Positions 6,408 to 14,646 of a stretch of DNA of 40,318 nucleotides are shown here, one piece after another; position 1 is the stretch's first letter, and every line of letters starts with the position of its first letter. A program made the translations under genes and the position numbers. The notes beneath the pieces are model-generated. The model searched no databases and had not been told where the DNA came from. It saw only the letters and a program-made list of their open reading frames with translations. Origin of the DNA: Defluviitaleaceae bacterium (lineage in GTDB: Bacteria > Bacillota > Clostridia > Lachnospirales > WQUN01); the NCBI GenBank assembly GCA_009785615.1, contig WQVX01000007.1, forward strand, positions 1 to 40,318. The letters run 5' to 3'.

Positions 6408-9065
6408 ATGGAAAAGTACGGCCTAAGTAGTGATCAAGTAAAAGCCTCAAAAGAAAAGCATGGCGATAATAGAATTACAGAAGTGGCATCAGAAGGGTTT
6501 TGGGATAAATTTTTAGGCAATCTAGGCGATCCCATGATAAAAATTTTGTGTGTTGCTTTAGTAATTAATGTTATTTTTGTTTTTCTTGGGCAAACAGAAT
6601 GGTTTGAAGCTCTTGCAATTGCCATTGCGGTTTTAATTGCAACTTTAGTTTCAACAATTGCAGAGTACAAAAACGAGAATGCTTTTCAAAAACTGCAAGA
6701 AGATGCATCTCAAATTGTCTGTAAAGCATATCGTGATGGGCAAATCACACAAGTTTTGATAGACGATTTAGTGGTTGGTGATTATGTTCTTCTTCAACCG
6801 GGAGATAAAATTCCGGCAGACGGAATTCTTTTTAATGGTGAACTTGGCGTTGATCAAGCAATTCTTAATGGAGAAACCCAAGAGGCTCGCAAAATTCCTA
6901 TGCCTGAAGGCCATGAAGATAGTGAATCCGGGCTGGATTTTCTTAACGAGTATAAAGTTTTCAGAGGTTCGGTAGTATGTAACGGAAACGCGATAATGAT
7001 TGTTACTACAGTAGGCGATAAGTCCGTTTATGGGCAAATTGCAAGCGAACTTCAACAAGACGACGACCGCGATACCCCTCTTAAAGTGAAATTGCGTAAA
7101 CTGGCAGAAGATATCAGCAAATTTGGTTATATCGGTGGTATAGGAATTGCACTCGCGTTTCTTTTTCAACGCATTGTCATCCAAAATGACTTTGATATGG
7201 CTTTAATAACCGCATATGTATCCAATTGGATGGTATTGATCAACGATATAATTTACGCTGTAAAATTTGCCGTAATAATAATCATTATGGCTGTTCCTGA
7301 AGGGCTTCCTTTGATGATTGCCATAGTTTCTTCCCTAAATATGAGAAAAATGCTTAAAAATAATGTTTTGGTTCGGAAGCTTGTAGGAATAGAAACCGCA
7401 GGCAGCCTAAACATTCTTTTTAGTGATAAAACAGGAACTATTACAAAAGGCGAACTTGAGGCTATTACATTTATTTCCGGGGGAGGCACAGAATTTTCTA
7501 CACTGGATAAAGTTGGCGAAAAGCTTAAAGAGATGCTTTCCATCAGCATTCACAGTAACACAAGTGCGCACATGGGAAAAAGCGGAGATGTTGTAAAAGC
7601 AATTGGCGGAAATGCAACAGAACGAGCCATTTTAAATTTTGCCCTTTTGAGAACACCTACGGTTAATGTGTCTATTACTAATACAATACCATTTAATAGC
7701 AATAACAAATATTCAGCAAGTCAAATCAATGGAGACTACAACCTTACTCTTGTAAAAGGTGCCCCGGAAAAAATTCTTGAAAGATGCACACATTATTATG
7801 ATGAAGATGGACAAGTTGTTCCACTGACAGACTTATCTGCAATAAATGACAAAATTGACGAAATGGCATCAAGGGCAATCCGTGTATTGGCACTTGCTAC
7901 AACCGGCAAAGAAATAGATGGTGCTCATTTGCCTGAATGGAATGACGGTGTCCTCGTCGGTATTATTGGCATTCGCGATGAAATCCGCCCTGAGTCAGTT
8001 TCGGCAATCCAACAAGTGCATAGCGCAGGTGTTCAGGTGGTAATGATTACCGGCGACCGCATGGAAACAGCATCAGCTATTGCAAAAGAGGCCGGCCTGT
8101 TAAAAAGCGATACAGATATTGCAATGACTTCAGACGAGCTTGCAAAGCTTTCTGATGACGAATTAAAGAAAATGCTGAAAGATATTCGTGTTATCGCAAG
8201 GGCATTGCCAAGCGATAAGAGTCGTTTGGTTCGTATTGCGCAAGACCTTAACCTTGTTGTAGGTATGACAGGTGACGGTGTTAATGATTCGCCTGCACTT
8301 AAAGCGGCAGATGTTGGGCTTGCTATGGGCAGCGGCACAGAAGTTGCTAAAGAAGCCAGTGAAATTATTATATTGGATGACAACTTTAATTCTATTGACC
8401 AAGCAATACTGTATGGTAGAACCATTTTTAATACAATCAGAAAATTTATAACATTCCAGCTTACTATCAACTTAGCCGCGGTAGCAATATCTTTTATTGC
8501 GCCATTGCTTGGTATGAATCCGCCGTTGACCATAATACAAATTTTGTGGCTTAACCTTGTAATGGATTCATTGGGTGCGCTTGCCTTTGGGGCAGAACCT
8601 GCACGAAGAAGATATATGCAAGAAAAGCCTAAGGACAGAAACGAAAATATTATAAGCAGTTACATGAAAAGTTCTATTGGCATCGGATCATTGGTAGTAT
8701 TCGGGCTTAGCTTGTTTTTCCTGCTTTCAGATATCCCACGTACAATTTTCCGCTATGCACCCGATGACAGATATCTTATGACCGGATTTTTTGCATTCTT
8801 TGTGTTCATCTATGTATTTAACGCCTTTAACATACGTACCGAAAAACTTAACTTGTTTGAAAACATCGGCAAAAACAAAGGCTTTTTAGCCATAATTGGT
8901 TTAATTGCAACAATACAGTTGCTAATGACATTCTTAGGCGGCCCGGTATTGCGTACTTACGGCTTAGTGTGGAATGAAATGCTGTTTGTAATGGGGCTTG
9001 CTTTTATCATTATACCTGTTGATTTGCTACGTAAAGTTATTTTTAATGCAACAGCGCGAAGTTAG
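6408..9065 (+). CDS. PMCA-type calcium-translocating P-type ATPase
   Basis: An 885-residue P2 ATPase. The actuator loop has NGET where most pumps have TGES. The M4 motif is AVPEGLPLMIAI, the phosphorylation site is SDKTGTITKGE with D340, and the hinge is MTGDGVNDSPALKAADVGLAMG. M6 has LWLNLVMDSLGALAFGAEP, which matches PMCA/Ca2+ pumps rather than heavy-metal or Na/K pumps. Ten hydrophobic segments are expected: a pair near residues 35-85, a pair near 235-305, and six after 680. AGGAGAGAG precedes the ATG. It leads an operon with three TerD genes, the first only 11 bases away. In B. subtilis-type clusters this slot is often filled by TerC, so the pump probably exports Ca2+ (or Mn2+) in the same stress response. 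Confidence 0.9.
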   Translation: MEKYGLSSDQVKASKEKHGDNRITEVASEGFWDKFLGNLGDPMIKILCVALVINVIFVFLGQTEWFEALAIAIAVLIATLVSTIAEYKNENAFQKLQEDASQIVCKAYRDGQITQVLIDDLVVGDYVLLQPGDKIPADGILFNGELGVDQAILNGETQEARKIPMPEGHEDSESGLDFLNEYKVFRGSVVCNGNAIMIVTTVGDKSVYGQIASELQQDDDRDTPLKVKLRKLAEDISKFGYIGGIGIALAFLFQRIVIQNDFDMALITAYVSNWMVLINDIIYAVKFAVIIIIMAVPEGLPLMIAIVSSLNMRKMLKNNVLVRKLVGIETAGSLNILFSDKTGTITKGELEAITFISGGGTEFSTLDKVGEKLKEMLSISIHSNTSAHMGKSGDVVKAIGGNATERAILNFALLRTPTVNVSITNTIPFNSNNKYSASQINGDYNLTLVKGAPEKILERCTHYYDEDGQVVPLTDLSAINDKIDEMASRAIRVLALATTGKEIDGAHLPEWNDGVLVGIIGIRDEIRPESVSAIQQVHSAGVQVVMITGDRMETASAIAKEAGLLKSDTDIAMTSDELAKLSDDELKKMLKDIRVIARALPSDKSRLVRIAQDLNLVVGMTGDGVNDSPALKAADVGLAMGSGTEVAKEASEIIILDDNFNSIDQAILYGRTIFNTIRKFITFQLTINLAAVAISFIAPLLGMNPPLTIIQILWLNLVMDSLGALAFGAEPARRRYMQEKPKDRNENIISSYMKSSIGIGSLVVFGLSLFFLLSDIPRTIFRYAPDDRYLMTGFFAFFVFIYVFNAFNIRTEKLNLFENIGKNKGFLAIIGLIATIQLLMTFLGGPVLRTYGLVWNEMLFVMGLAFIIIPVDLLRKVIFNATARS

Positions 9066-9076
9066 GAGGACAGTTT

Positions 9077-9673
9077 ATGGGAGTAAATTTGCAAAAGGGA
9101 CAAAAAGTTGACCTTACAAAGGGCAATGCCAAACTTAGTACGCTTATGGTAGGGCTTGGTTGGGATGAAGCTGAAGGCCCGGCCGGCAAGGGTCTTTTTG
9201 GTAAAATTTTCAAATGGAATATTGACTGTGATGCAAGTGTTCTTGTGCTAACGGATGGCAAATTAGAAAGTGACAGCGATCTTGTTTACTTTGCTAATAA
9301 AAAGCATAAATCGGGAGCAATTGTACATCAGGGTGATAATCTAACAGGTGGCAGCGATGGTGATGACGAACAAATTAAAGTTGACCTTGACAAGCTTCCT
9401 GCAAATTGCGATAAACTAGTTTTTGTAGTAAATATTTTTATGGCAAAAACTAAAAAACAGCATTTTGGTATGGTAAATAATGCATTTATCCGCATTGTTA
9501 ATGACCAAACTGGCGAAGAACTTTGCAAGTACAATTTATCTGAAAATTATGACAATATGACTGCCATGATTTTTGGTGAAGTTTATCGGCATGAAAACGA
9601 GTGGAAATTTTCAGCTATCGGCGAAGCAACAAAAGACCCCGGATTAAGGGAGCTTGCCGCCGGGTATTCTTAA
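9077..9673 (+). CDS. TerD-family calcium-binding stress protein 1
   Basis: A 198-residue TerD-domain protein. It begins [14 protein letters not shown], the TerD start signature, and carries the Ca2+-binding acidic loop GDNLTGGSDGDDEQ around residue 90. The segment after LGWDE has an insert (GPAGKGLFGKIFKWNIDCD) not present in the next paralogue. The AGGAGG ribosome site overlaps the end of the ATPase gene spacer. Family role: cytoplasmic Ca2+-binding proteins that scaffold the tellurite/phage/colicin stress response. It likely buffers or senses the ion moved by the adjacent pump, which is inferred from the operon. Confidence 0.88.
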   Translation: MGVNLQKGQKVDLTKGNAKLSTLMVGLGWDEAEGPAGKGLFGKIFKWNIDCDASVLVLTDGKLESDSDLVYFANKKHKSGAIVHQGDNLTGGSDGDDEQIKVDLDKLPANCDKLVFVVNIFMAKTKKQHFGMVNNAFIRIVNDQTGEELCKYNLSENYDNMTAMIFGEVYRHENEWKFSAIGEATKDPGLRELAAGYS

Positions 9674-9698
9674 TCAAGGATTGTTTCAGATGAAAGTA

Positions 9699-9712
9699 AC
9701 GGCAATTGCCGT
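9699..9712. repeat. 14-bp perfect palindrome in the terD1-terD2 spacer
   Basis: ACGGCAATTGCCGT is a perfect palindrome in the 79-base spacer between the first two TerD genes. It could be an operator, an RNA processing hairpin or a weak attenuator. TATAAT at 9718-9723 follows it, but no matching -35 box is visible. Confidence 0.45.
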
Positions 9713-9752
9713 GAAAATATAATTTCTATTAATTATCAAGGAGGAAAAATCA

Positions 9753-10334
9753 ATGGCAGTAAATTTGCAAAAAGGTCAAAAGGTTGATCTTACAAAAGGA
9801 AATGCAGGTTTATCAAAAATATTTATCGCACTTGGTTGGGATACAAATAAGTATGACGGAGGTCATGACTTTGATTTAGATGCAAGTGCATTTTTGCTTG
9901 GTTCAAATGGCAAAGTACCGTCAGATAAGGATTTTATATTCTACGGAAACCTTGCCCATTCCAGCGGTGCTGTAGAACATACAGGTGACAACCTGACAGG
10001 TGAAGGTGAGGACGAGGACGACGAAGTAATTAACGTTGATCTTTCAAAAATACCTGCCAACATCGACAAAATTGACTTTACAGTAACTATTCATGAAGCC
10101 CCTGAACGTGGGCAAAACTTTGGAATGGTTTCAAATGCGTACATTCGTGTAGTTAATTCAGTCAATGGTGAAGAGCTTATTCGTTATGATTTAGGCGAAG
10201 ATTATTCTGTTGAAACTGCCATTGTTGTAAGTGAAATATACCGCTCCGGGTCAGAATGGAAATTTAATGCCATCGGCAGTGGCTTTAAGGGTGGATTAAA
10301 GGCACTTTGTGAAAATTTTGGTGTTAATGTTTAA
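9753..10334 (+). CDS. TerD-family calcium-binding stress protein 2 (TerD/TerE type)
   Basis: A 193-residue canonical TerD/TerE protein: [16 protein letters not shown] start, LGWDTN, then [10 protein letters not shown] and the acidic Ca2+ site [14 protein letters not shown] near residue 90, followed by [21 protein letters not shown] lies 9 bases before ATG. It is the most standard of the three paralogues here and lacks the glycine-rich insert of the first. Expected role: cytoplasmic Ca2+-binding component of the Ter stress response, co-transcribed with the pump. Confidence 0.92.
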
Positions 10335-10382
10335 ATCGTGAACCTTTCATAAATTTAAGTAGCTGTTTTCATAGCTTCTTGA

Positions 10383-10462
10383 TAGACCTGTCTGCTGCCT
10401 CATTCTATTATTTCCTTCCATTGCCGGCAGACAGGTCTACTTTAGAAGCAATTCATGCTTCT
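10383..10462 (+). promoter_or_regulatory. Structured leader between terD2 and terD3
   Basis: A perfect 13-bp inverted repeat (arms 10383-10395 and 10427-10439, TAGACCTGTCTGC and its complement) encloses 31 bases. A second hairpin, AGAAGCA-ATTCA-TGCTTCT at 10444-10462, ends 9 bases before the AAGGAG-type ribosome site region of the third TerD gene. Neither has a T-run, so attenuation by translation or RNA processing is more likely than termination. Confidence 0.5.
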
Positions 10463-10481
10463 TATTAAGGAGAATTTTTAT

Positions 10482-11072
10482 ATGCCCGTAGAGCTTAGGA
10501 AAGGTCAAAAGGTTAATTTATCTAAATCTGTAGAATCAAACGAATTTATAATTAATTTGAATTGGACACAGACAATTAAAAAAAAGGGGCTTTTTGGCAC
10601 GACAAAATCACAGGCCGTTGACTTAGATTTAGGTGCATTTGTTGAGCTTAGCAATGGTAAAAAACATTGCATACAAGCATTGGGAAACTCGTTTGGAAGT
10701 CTTACCGACGTTCCCTATGTCATGCTTGACGGAGACGATAGAACCGGCGAATCTACCGACGGGGAAAATCTTCGCGTTAACGGCAAAATGTCCTCAAATA
10801 TACGGCGATTACTTATATATACATTTATATATGAAGGTGCGGCAAACTGGCAGCAAGTAGATGGTATTGTAACAATCAAGTGCCCCGGAGCAGACGACAT
10901 TGTTATAAAAATGGATGAATACAACAGCAATAATAACATGTGTGCTATTGCCCAAATTACAAATATAGACGGAAATTTTTCTGTTGAAAAACTGGTTAAC
11001 TTTTTTAGTGGGCATGAACTGATGGACAAGCATTTTGGCTGGGGATTTAAATGGACTGTTGGAAGAAAGTAA
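10482..11072 (+). CDS. TerD-superfamily protein 3, TerA-like
   Basis: A 196-residue divergent TerD-superfamily protein. ATG 10482 is chosen because AAGGAG lies in the preceding bases. It starts VELRKGQKVNLSK, then DLDLGAFVEL, with an acidic site LDGDDRTGESTDGENLRV resembling TerA-type domains more than TerD, and ends with FGWGFKWTVGRK. Last gene of the pump-TerD operon, followed by a strong terminator. Probably a Ca2+-binding partner of the other two. TerA-like versus TerD-like naming is uncertain. Confidence 0.8.
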   Translation: MPVELRKGQKVNLSKSVESNEFIINLNWTQTIKKKGLFGTTKSQAVDLDLGAFVELSNGKKHCIQALGNSFGSLTDVPYVMLDGDDRTGESTDGENLRVNGKMSSNIRRLLIYTFIYEGAANWQQVDGIVTIKCPGADDIVIKMDEYNSNNNMCAIAQITNIDGNFSVEKLVNFFSGHELMDKHFGWGFKWTVGRK

Positions 11073-11075
11073 ATA

Positions 11076-11121
11076 AAAGGGCCAACCAAAATTATTAAAA
11101 TAAATTTTGGTTGGCCTTTAA
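11076..11121. terminator. Bidirectional terminator between ter operon and lanthipeptide genes
   Basis: AAGGGCCAACCAAAAT pairs with ATTTTGGTTGGCCTTT, about 16 bp with A- and T-rich flanks. It lies between two converging operons and can end both the TerD transcript and the precursor-peptide transcript. Confidence 0.85.
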
Positions 11122-11153
11122 GCTTTCTAACATCTAGCTAGATATATGTTAGT

Positions 11154-11285
11154 TTAAAATGGAGTTGGAACTCCACATGGGTATATAGTATGAATTGTCA
11201 TAAGAGAAAAATTCGGAGTATCCGAAAATGCTTTTTCTTCTACTTGAAGCTCTTGTAAAGACAACACTAAATCTTTATTATGCAT
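11154..11285 (-). CDS. Class III lanthipeptide precursor A1
   Basis: A 43-residue peptide preceded by AAGGAGGTGAAATCA. The leader (residues 1-24) has the class III recognition box LVLSLQELQVEE at 6-17, comparable to the ILELQDLEVE box of labyrinthopeptin precursors. Conserved FSDTPN at 20-25 precedes the core. The core contains S27 and TIHTIYPC at 30-37, so T30-x2-T33-x3-C37, the spacing of a labionin ring but with Thr, then GVPTPF. C37 is the only Cys, so at most one thioether ring can form. Last of four paralogues behind the LanKC gene and only 15 bases after A2. Expected product: a leaderless lanthipeptide with one (methyl)labionin or methyllanthionine. Assignment rests on motif and context. 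Confidence 0.85.
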   Translation of the reverse strand: MHNKDLVLSLQELQVEEKAFSDTPNFSLMTIHTIYPCGVPTPF

Positions 11286-11300
11286 TGATTTCACCTCCTT

Positions 11301-11423
11301 TTACCATGGATGGGCACATGGGAGAGTATGAATTGTCATAAAAGAAATATTCGGAGTATCCGAAAATGGTTTTTCTTCTATTTGAAGCTCCTGTAAAGAC
11401 AGTACTAAATCTTTATTGTACAT
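11301..11423 (-). CDS. Class III lanthipeptide precursor A2
   Basis: A 40-residue peptide with AAAGGAGGTGCG upstream. Leader box LVLSLQELQIEE at residues 6-17, then PFSDTPN. The core has S27 and TIHTLPC at 30-36, so T30-x2-T33-x2-C36, one residue shorter than in A1 and A3, and ends AHPW. One Cys only. The start is MYNK, like A4, while A1 and A3 start MHNK. Aromatic and His residues in the tail are unlike the other copies, suggesting a distinct product from the same enzyme. Confidence 0.85.
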   Translation of the reverse strand: MYNKDLVLSLQELQIEEKPFSDTPNISFMTIHTLPCAHPW

Positions 11424-11508
11424 AAATCGCACCTCCTTTTCTTTGAATATATGAACAATATCTCTTTAAATTTTCCGGTATTTAGCTAAATAAAATGGTT
11501 TAACAATA

Positions 11509-11631
11509 TTAAAGAACTGCACATGGGAATATAGTGTGGAGTGTAAGATGTGAAACATTCGGAGTATCCGAAAATGTTTTTTCTTCTACTTGAAGCTCTT
11601 GTAAAGACAACACTAAATCTTTATTATGCAT
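11509..11631 (-). CDS. Class III lanthipeptide precursor A3
   Basis: A 40-residue peptide with AAAGGAGGTGAAATCA upstream. Leader identical to A1 over residues 1-18 (MHNKDLVLSLQELQVEEK), then FSDTPN. Core S27 and TLHTIFPC at 30-37 (Thr-x2-Thr-x3-Cys), ending AVL. It has the most divergent central core (VSHLTLH). The spacer after its stop contains the palindrome TATTTAGCTAAATA, a small hairpin also seen in similar form after A4. Confidence 0.85.
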   Translation of the reverse strand: MHNKDLVLSLQELQVEEKTFSDTPNVSHLTLHTIFPCAVL

Positions 11632-11690
11632 TGATTTCACCTCCTTTTGTCTGATATAGTGAATATTTTTTTAACTTCCGGCTATTTAGC

Positions 11691-11819
11691 CTAAATTATA
11701 GTTGGAACCGGACATGGAAGAGTATGAATTGTCATAAAAGAAAGATTCGGAGTATCTGAAAATGATTTTTCTTCTACTTGAAGCTCCTGTAAAGACAACA
11801 CTAAATTTTTATTATACAT
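11691..11819 (-). CDS. Class III lanthipeptide precursor A4
   Basis: A 42-residue peptide with AAAAGGAGGTGAAATCA upstream, the first precursor after the LanKC gene (121 bases away). Leader MYNKNLVLSLQELQVEEK, then SFSDTPN. Core S27 and TIHTLPC at 30-36 (Thr-x2-Thr-x2-Cys), tail PVPTII. One Cys. No clear separate promoter is visible in the gap after LanKC, so it is probably read through from the LanKC promoter. Confidence 0.85.
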   Translation of the reverse strand: MYNKNLVLSLQELQVEEKSFSDTPNLSFMTIHTLPCPVPTII

Positions 11820-11940
11820 TGATTTCACCTCCTTTTTGCTTGGGATATTTATGAATTAAGGTATTAGGGCGCGCTCCCATTACCCAATCATGCATCATTA
11901 GAAGCAGTGATCGTTGCCCCGGCTTGCTATATGGGGTAGT
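11820..11940 (-). other. Spacer between lanKC and the first precursor
   Basis: 121 bases with no ORF and no convincing promoter. It contains GGGCGCGC/short GC clusters (CCCC...GGGG around 11917-11936 on the plus strand) that could form a weak hairpin lowering read-through. The ribosome site of A4 lies at its end. Confidence 0.3.
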
Positions 11941-14541
11941 TTATTCCGAAATCGCATTCCACAGACTTTCTGATAGTGGAAGCCAAGCTATCGGATTTTT
12001 TCTTCTTGCCGATTCTATAGCTAATATAACGCCGGAAACTCCTGAAAAAAAGTCAGACGATAATCTATACCCTACTCTGCCGGATATAAAGATTTTATCT
12101 TCAATCTCAATTAAAAAGGGGCGTAATTTGTTTAATGTGTTTTTCATTTGATCATTGTTATCAAAACAATCAAGTATAAAGAAACTTGCTGCACCTCCTG
12201 CCAAACTTGGTTCTAAGCATATTCTGGCATCGGCGTTTCTTTTTAAACCGCTTAACTTATCTTCGTATATATTTTGATTGCTAACTTTTTGTAATATTAT
12301 TATGGATAACCAAACACCTACAGATCCATTTGATAAATAGGGCAAAACACGATTTCTTATTTTGTCATGGACATTTAGCAGCCCTTCCCCGTTATCAAAT
12401 AACCCATCAATATCTTTTTGCAAAGCAGCAATTGAACCGTTTAGATATTTCTCATTTTTTGTTGCATGATATAAAAATGATAGAAACATTGATAATCCTG
12501 AATATCCATCAAATAATCCTAAAGATAGGGCTTCCCAATCGGAGCCGTTTACCGCAATATCTTTTTCAACAGCCAATATAATTATATTGGCAATATCTTC
12601 GGCTTCTTTTAAATATTTTTGATCATCCGTTGCCATATACAAAGAAACTAAGGCTAGTCCAATACCTGCTAAGCCGGATCTAAAAGATAAGTCGTTACAA
12701 TTTTTATCGTAGCTTTTTATTACTGCATCAATTATTTGCAAAGCTTCTTTTTGATAGCCACATTCATATAGCGTGCAAGCAATTCCGGCTTTTCCTGTTA
12801 GGTAGGCATTATTATATCCATGATTAAGAACTAAGTTAATTTTGGAATCTATCCATGATTTTATATCGCTTGTTAAAGAGGACAGTCTATTAAGAGCTAA
12901 AACAGCCCCAAACCCTCCGGTATGTATATTTAACATACCGCAATCAGTTTCAAATTGGCGTATATCTCCATTTATCAAGCTTTCTGATTCGATTTTACAA
13001 TTATGAAGCAATGCTGCTTTAAGCTTTTTAATTATTCTTTCTTGGGTATCGTAATATTCTGCTATGGAGCCGCTTTCTATTATTTGTTTAGCTTTTTCAT
13101 ACGTATTATTAAAAATTTCATCAGATTTAGGTATATTTTTGCAGCATTCTATTTGAAAATCATAAAAATAATCGTAAAATTGGGAACCAAAATTATCATA
13201 TATCCATAAACAATGAGAAATATTTATATTTGCATCAAAATCAAATACAGGTGCAATTGGTAATAGCAAATAATGTAGAATACGGTTTAGCGAAAACCAG
13301 TCCTCATCTTTTGCTAATTTACTTTTGAGACTGTGAAATCCACGTGTTACAACCACTTTAGCAGAATCAACATTGGCTTCTTGGGCAACTTCAAAATCAA
13401 TAATTTTTATGTTGAAATTAGCGTCAACAATAATATTTTGAACATGCAAATCACACATTGCGATACCGCGGCTATGCATTTCTGTTACTATATTTTTTAA
13501 TTTGTTCATTATTAAAATTACATTGTCTAAATATTTTTTGATTTCAACATTTTCAACAGGCATAAATGGATAGTTTCTAGTAATCCATGTTGTAAGTGCA
13601 TTACCTTCTGCAAATTCCTCAACCAAAAAGGTGTGTTCCCATATTTTGAAATAATCTACGGCATTTATGATACCTTCAACATCATTTAATTTAATTAAAG
13701 CATCATATTCAATTAACAATCTATCGGCGGCGGCCTTATTGTTAGAGTCAATTCCGATTCCTAACCTAGCTTCTTTAATAAGAATTTTTACTCCATCTGC
13801 TTCTCTTTTGCCAACATAAATTCCGCCGGAATTAGAAAATTTTAAAACTTTTTCAATTTTATAAAGATCCATTTTTGTTTCTTCTTTTGATAAGTTTTCA
13901 TTCTCAAATAGTTCGTTTTGCTGATTTAATTCTTTTGGCTCTTCTATAAAATCAGGCAAATAATATTTAGGCTCTCGGATATCGGGAACTAAATTGCCGG
14001 TGGAATTATATATACAATAATCACCATTATCGTTTACAATTTTTTCAAAAGCTCCATATCTATAAAAAATATTACTATTTTTCCACTGTTTATCTGTCAA
14101 AATATATGGGCCTTTTGGAAAATCTTTTAATGCCGCATATAATAGATTAAGTAGTATGATAAATTCATCATTTTTTGGATATATAGTTATAAATTTGCCG
14201 GAGCTAATTCTATTTCCATGTTTTGAGTACATTTTTAGTAGTTCTTTTTTGCCTTTAACATGTTTAAAAGATATTTTTTCATCTAATAAAATTTTTGAAA
14301 CAGTATCTAAGGTTATTTCTGCATTACTATAATCGGTGCTAACATGAATTTTCCAACCTTGAACAGGTAAAATTCTATTTTTAACATTATAAGATGCCCA
14401 AAACCCGTCAGATCTGTCAACAGTCCAACTATTGTTAACATTTTTTACAATAAAGCTTTCATCATTTTCATATACAGGCTTCACATAATATGTAGAAGTA
14501 GCACTCATATATTCAATATATTTTTCATAGATATTTTGCAT
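11941..14541 (-). CDS. lanKC: Class III lanthipeptide synthetase (LanKC)
   Basis: An 866-residue trifunctional synthetase. Lyase region (residues 1-215): KHGNRISSGKFITIYP near 107-122, the conserved phosphothreonine-lyase signature of LanKC. Kinase region (about 225-490): Lys256 in ILIKEA, catalytic loop CDLHVQN with D364, and IDFE with D382 replacing DFG. Cyclase-like region (about 540-866): GLAGIG, DGYSGLS, PYLSNGSVGVW and GVSGVI repeats of a LanC barrel but none of the Cys-Cys-His zinc ligands, which separates class III from class IV LanL. Start ATG 14541 has GGGAGG upstream; the longer frame begins inside the promoter. It should phosphorylate, eliminate and cyclise Ser/Thr in the four precursors downstream. 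No dedicated transporter or protease lies beside it. Confidence 0.9.
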   Translation of the reverse strand: MQNIYEKYIEYMSATSTYYVKPVYENDESFIVKNVNNSWTVDRSDGFWASYNVKNRILPVQGWKIHVSTDYSNAEITLDTVSKILLDEKISFKHVKGKKELLKMYSKHGNRISSGKFITIYPKNDEFIILLNLLYAALKDFPKGPYILTDKQWKNSNIFYRYGAFEKIVNDNGDYCIYNSTGNLVPDIREPKYYLPDFIEEPKELNQQNELFENENLSKEETKMDLYKIEKVLKFSNSGGIYVGKREADGVKILIKEARLGIGIDSNNKAAADRLLIEYDALIKLNDVEGIINAVDYFKIWEHTFLVEEFAEGNALTTWITRNYPFMPVENVEIKKYLDNVILIMNKLKNIVTEMHSRGIAMCDLHVQNIIVDANFNIKIIDFEVAQEANVDSAKVVVTRGFHSLKSKLAKDEDWFSLNRILHYLLLPIAPVFDFDANINISHCLWIYDNFGSQFYDYFYDFQIECCKNIPKSDEIFNNTYEKAKQIIESGSIAEYYDTQERIIKKLKAALLHNCKIESESLINGDIRQFETDCGMLNIHTGGFGAVLALNRLSSLTSDIKSWIDSKINLVLNHGYNNAYLTGKAGIACTLYECGYQKEALQIIDAVIKSYDKNCNDLSFRSGLAGIGLALVSLYMATDDQKYLKEAEDIANIIILAVEKDIAVNGSDWEALSLGLFDGYSGLSMFLSFLYHATKNEKYLNGSIAALQKDIDGLFDNGEGLLNVHDKIRNRVLPYLSNGSVGVWLSIIILQKVSNQNIYEDKLSGLKRNADARICLEPSLAGGAASFFILDCFDNNDQMKNTLNKLRPFLIEIEDKIFISGRVGYRLSSDFFSGVSGVILAIESARRKNPIAWLPLSESLWNAISE

Positions 14542-14617: not shown

Positions 14618-14646
14618 ATTTTATAACATTAAATTCCAAATGTCAA
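14618..14646 (-). promoter_or_regulatory. Near-consensus promoter of the lanthipeptide operon
   Basis: On the minus strand TTGACA (14646-14641), 17 bases and TAAAAT (14623-14618). Predicted start is about 14611, giving a leader of about 70 bases that holds the 14559-14580 hairpin. The strength suggests constitutive transcription unless blocked by an unseen repressor. Confidence 0.8.

Follow-up and report, generated by a model that had tools for sequence, protein, structure and literature searches.

Organization of the lanKC locus

The window, that is the whole stretch of 40,318 nucleotides analysed here, carries on its minus strand (14541–11154) a lanKC gene followed by four small precursor genes in the same orientation. 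lanKC (11941–14541) starts at an ATG at 14541, behind GGGAGG, and encodes in a frame free of stops a class III lanthionine synthetase of 866 amino acids, recognized by the NCBIfam class III LanKC model NF038151 (706.9 bits, cut-off 575), by Pfam and by its likeness to ThurKC in sequence and fold. The precursor genes, each read from ATG to stop and supported by alignment and by a profile search of the genome, are A4 (MYNKNLVLSLQELQVEEKSFSDTPNLSFMTIHTLPCPVPTII, 42 amino acids, 11691–11819), A3 (MHNKDLVLSLQELQVEEKTFSDTPNVSHLTLHTIFPCAVL, 40 amino acids, 11509–11631), A2 (MYNKDLVLSLQELQIEEKPFSDTPNISFMTIHTLPCAHPW, 40 amino acids, 11301–11423) and A1 (MHNKDLVLSLQELQVEEKAFSDTPNFSLMTIHTIYPCGVPTPF, 43 amino acids, 11154–11285). 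A LanKC followed by four precursors of 40–43 residues is what the first-pass annotation had proposed, and the coordinates, the profile score and the precursor lengths bear this out.

A predicted sigma-70 type promoter of near-consensus sequence (TTGACA-17-TAAAAT, 11 of 12 consensus positions matched; minus strand, 14618–14646) lies upstream of lanKC, its 3' end 77 nt before the lanKC ATG. The intergenic gaps are of 121 nt (lanKC–A4), 59 nt (A4–A3), 85 nt (A3–A2) and 15 nt (A2–A1), and the simplest reading of this arrangement is that lanKC-A4-A3-A2-A1 would be carried on one transcript. The gap common to A1 and to a convergent terD-like gene (11073–11153) contains, by sequence reading, the inverted repeat GGCCAACCAAAATT...AATTTTGGTTGGCC, likely a bidirectional terminator; this repeat is absent from the list of our terminator scan. 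A search against Rfam gave no match. The convergent genes, on the plus strand (6408–11072), encode a P-type cation ATPase and then three TerD-domain proteins of the tellurite/stress type, the third of which is only weakly TerD-like.

The lanthipeptide locus contains no exporter gene and no leader protease gene. It differs in this from the plasmid-borne relatives and from the relatives in the Defluviitaleaceae metagenome-assembled genome (MAG) Nc150P1bin1 (WRGD01), where an ABC exporter is encoded beside lanKC (in WRGD01 at L022 and L083, two of the loci looked at). A clustered protease is usually missing from class III loci (PMC8960859). Two candidates from elsewhere in the genome were considered and set aside. 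Paired M16B proteases, as in paenithopeptin maturation, were rejected since the genome has only two unlinked M16 genes and no adjacent pair, and the exporter of the relatives has its best full-length homologue within a radical-SAM peptide locus of a different contig, for which reason this homologue was not assigned to the operon. A separate radical-SAM peptide locus forms one run on contig C173 (68–5639) of this genome, where a small ORF with Cys stands together with genes for two radical-SAM proteins, for an M55 D-aminopeptidase and for an ABC exporter. On the Anaerococcus prevotii plasmid pAPRE01 (44–9920), which is conjugative, a class III lanthipeptide set directly adjoins a CXXX-repeat radical-SAM peptide maturase.

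Leader and core of the four precursors

Every precursor gene is preceded by the Shine–Dalgarno sequence AAAGGAGGTG, within which the GTG starts of the ORF list fall, so that the start is likely the ATG 8 nt past AGGAGG. Common to all four precursors are AGGAGGTG, an LxLQxL leader box and a single Cys. A scan of the 40-kb window for small ORFs combining a Shine–Dalgarno sequence, LxLQxL and a Cys recovered these four and no others, and 100 windows simulated with an order-2 Markov model yielded none; the four precursors are thus not a product of chance. They score at best 14.2 bits against the NCBIfam class III precursor model, below its cut-off of 30, and a profile search of the same genome found no copy beyond the four. 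Between paralogues dN is 0.05–0.12 and dS 0.15–0.53, with dN below dS in every pair; these are rough estimates from about 36 codons, and they fit purifying selection.

The leader box is LSLQELQ(V/I)EE, with LSLQEL in all four precursors. Its L8-x-L10-Q11-x-L13 matches the anchor L(-18)-x-L(-16)-Q(-15)-x-L(-13) of ThurA, in which these positions were described (PMC10604976), and this alignment places the start of the core near residue 26. The precursor alignment has 27 invariant positions, including L8, L10-Q11, L13, S21-D-T-P-N25, S27, T30, H32, T33, P35 and C36. In three precursors (window positions 11212–11226, 11350–11364 and 11558–11572) a perfect 15-base palindrome, TTCGGATACTCCGAA, was considered as an RNA hairpin and rejected: coding explains it, since its bases specify the invariant FSDTPN and the fourth copy has lost the palindrome through one silent change.

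The core can be written S27-x2-T30-x-H32-T33-x2/3-P-C, with S27 and H32 invariant in the four peptides and S21 and T23, also invariant, just before S27. The leader box, the single Cys, the T30-x2-T33-x2/3-Cys arrangement and the invariant His named in the first-pass annotation are all present in the alignment; that description was right for the Thr, His and Cys pattern but overlooked the invariant Ser27. The dehydratable core residues are S27, T30 and T33, to which A1 and A4 add one Thr near the C terminus. T30-x2-T33-x2/3-Cys has the Ser-x2-Ser-x(2-5)-Cys spacing with Thr at both places and lines up with S-x2-S-x2-C in STISINC and STISVFC, from a near relative (L083), while S27-x2-T30 offers a second option.

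None of the precursors collected beside other LanKCs has Thr-x-His-Thr-x2/3-Cys, none of the relatives found has Thr in both labionin positions with a His between them, and no His occupies the place of His32 in the relatives' cores collected. Searches for the precursors returned nothing from viral contigs, none from plasmids and, in 344 genomes of the order, only the four copies of the window. The combination had been noted as one not recognized from described lanthipeptides, and this holds for the exact core in the sets searched but not for its elements: methyllabionin has been described, including in NAI-112 (PMC7296275, PMC10206099), as have TxxSxxC variants and class III cores with a single Cys and enriched in His, SxxSxHHC among them (PMC11251773), and in noursin a LanKC makes a labionin plus a His-to-butyrine bridge, that is a His crosslinked to a dehydrated Thr (PMC10206099). 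Judged by sequence, the exact Ser-Thr-His-Thr-Cys core is unmatched in the sets searched and otherwise a variation on described themes. NAI-112 and the other methyllabionin-containing class III peptides already provide a Thr-derived labionin such as this core may form; their cores and hosts differ.

The LanKC enzyme and its relatives

LanKC has the three-domain lyase–kinase–cyclase organization (RamC_N, Pkinase and LANC_like in Pfam) and scores 286 bits against the class IV model, far under the cut-off of 650. ThurKC of Bacillus thuringiensis (PDB 8sao/8sam) matches residues 8–858 (E about 1e-190), with about 36–37% identity over the full length. An AF2 model built on a 13-row alignment has a pLDDT of 90.3, mostly at least 90 within the cyclase domain, and a pTM of 0.86; its top Foldseek match is ThurKC 8sam (E 7e-69, TM 0.85). 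ThurKC residues were mapped onto LanKC through the pairwise alignment, with their roles taken from PMC10604976. The eight residues of the lyase that were tested in ThurKC are all kept (K65, H67, K94, K108, K117, D152, R163 and R191), the lyase and kinase equivalents in the window enzyme being K64, H66, K93, K107, K116, D150, R161, R189 and D382-F383-E384, and the DFE motif and the cyclase residues R519, S608, R610, D667 and S726 (ThurKC numbering) are kept as well. The Cys, Cys and His zinc ligands of NisC correspond to S740, A781 and G782 (mapping of PMC10604976), which makes the cyclase, as in ThurKC, a predicted LanC-like, zinc-free enzyme. Together with the LxLQxL anchor, these properties uphold the class III assignment, with Thr in both labionin positions of the four precursors.

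The ThurKC system (8sam, 8sao, 8sap; PMC10604976) differs in three respects: ThurA1 undergoes 11 dehydrations, against three conserved Ser/Thr in the window cores, the leader protease of ThurA, ThurP3/P4, has no counterpart in the window locus, and ThurKC has Phe770-Asp771 where the window enzyme has Ala781-Gly782, in an ungapped stretch (GGLFDGA versus PSLAGGA). Phe770 and Asp771 stand where NisC has its zinc ligands Cys330 and His331, and the F770A and D771A variants each fail to form labionin (PMC10604976). Phe or Tyr occupies position 770 in each of the 15 Bacillota enzymes compared that are closest to it (above 450 bits). Position 771 is variable among LanKCs (R, H, Q and others), and the aromatic residue is also missing from some actinobacterial LanKCs and one Lactobacillus LanKC, which is why we take A781-G782 as a flag and not as proof of altered chemistry.

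In the phylogeny that the first-pass annotation had called for, the window LanKC lies inside the Bacillota ThurKC-like clade, grouped with the WRGD01 enzymes at 97/98 and apart from the Streptomyces enzymes; relatives of the same clade carry LxLQxL precursors adjoining lanKC. LanKCs of this type occur in 2 of 392 genomes of the order, this genome and WRGD01. Among 391 genomes drawn from the class this genome alone has one, and among 398 drawn from the phylum four more do. The LanKC profile found nothing in viral contigs, and phage records yielded no more than a single 11% fragment of LanKC. lanKC lies in a GC trough (0.30–0.34, against 0.36–0.43 around it), and its horizontal gain is likely. 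WRGD01 itself encodes four divergent LanKCs (L021, L022, L083 and L084), which share 40–49% identity with that of the window. Most of them are accompanied by several different precursors, and for the order such a class III load is unusual. These loci provide the nearest LanKCs found (47–49% for the best two) and likewise have small LxLQxL precursors beside lanKC, but their cores, among them the canonical STISINC and STISVFC, have Ser and no His between, where the window core has Thr and His.

Predicted products and alternative readings

We consider it probable, at roughly 80%, that lanKC-A4-A3-A2-A1 is a minimal class III lanthipeptide operon that places one methyl-labionin or methyllanthionine in each peptide. 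The operon is a real and probably working class III system, ordinary in kind: the sequence shows the genes and their common direction, the leader box, the enzyme class and its lyase and kinase residues, whereas co-transcription, dehydration, ring type, export and any biological role are inferred. LanKC would bind the LxLQxL leader helix of each precursor and, in the core, phosphorylate and then eliminate Ser27, Thr30 and Thr33; the zinc-free cyclase domain would couple the sole Cys to one of the dehydro residues so formed. The product would be a methyl-labionin, most likely T30/T33/Cys, which lines up with S-x2-S-x2-C in the nearest relatives, or a methyllanthionine, one or two dehydro residues being left, and leader removal and export would rely on genes elsewhere in the genome. 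One such ring in each peptide had been predicted from the start and remains plausible, with the reservations that Ser27 offers alternatives and that the equivalents of Phe770-Asp771 are lost. The presence of Thr for Ser at both labionin positions, the A781-G782 pair, the lack of exporter and protease in the locus and the precursor scores under the NCBIfam cut-off all count against this reading.

Since the Phe770-Asp771 pair is replaced while the tested lyase and kinase residues are kept, it is over ring chemistry that other readings arise. The cyclase might be impaired, leaving the dehydrated peptide linear or slowly closing as a simple methyllanthionine, in an operon drifting after horizontal transfer. 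The replacement of an aromatic-x pair kept in the 15 close Bacillota relatives, the ThurKC F770A and D771A phenotypes, the missing exporter and protease, and the rarity of LanKC in the order and its position in a GC dip would all fit, but an intact 866-codon frame with all other checked catalytic residues kept, a cyclase domain modelled mostly at a pLDDT of at least 90, four paralogues with dN below dS, and a position 771 that varies, next to an aromatic that other LanKCs also lack, make such decay unlikely. A noursin-like tricycle, which would use all of the five invariant reactive residues, the same LanKC joining the Cys and two dehydro residues in a (methyl)labionin and His32 adding to the remaining one, either Dha27 or a Dhb, is in our estimation very improbable. 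Noursin has the same inventory, with three Ser/Thr beside a single His and a single Cys, and it undergoes three dehydrations and retains no dehydro residue in free form (PMC10206099); its leader is also of the LxLQxL type, His32 is invariant in the four window peptides and missing at this place from the relatives' cores collected, and the A781-G782 site leaves scope for altered chemistry. However, the noursin core is S-x3-S-T-x2-H-x3-C, whereas the spacing here is S-x2-T-x-H-T-x2/3-P-C; His32 adjoins Thr33 and is two residues after Thr30, which suits a bridge of the i,i+3 type poorly; and the window LanKC clusters with the Bacillota ThurKC-like clade, whereas LanKC-Hbt, the noursin type of enzyme, belongs to a distinct actinobacterial cyclase group and its locus has a clustered protease and transporter.

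As a minimal class III operon, the locus adds a precursor family not found elsewhere in the sets searched, from a Clostridia lineage in which LanKC is rare. It also offers a natural test of the metal-free LanKC cyclase, as the two residues to which labionin formation is ascribed in ThurKC are both replaced, and this altered cyclase coincides with a substrate bearing a conserved His missing from relatives. It is a long shot that this LanKC, a Bacillota enzyme whose cyclase site would have been re-made, forms a His32 crosslink beside or instead of labionin; if true, His-to-dehydroamino acid bridging would have arisen here independently, or the substrate's own His would be assisting the cyclization.
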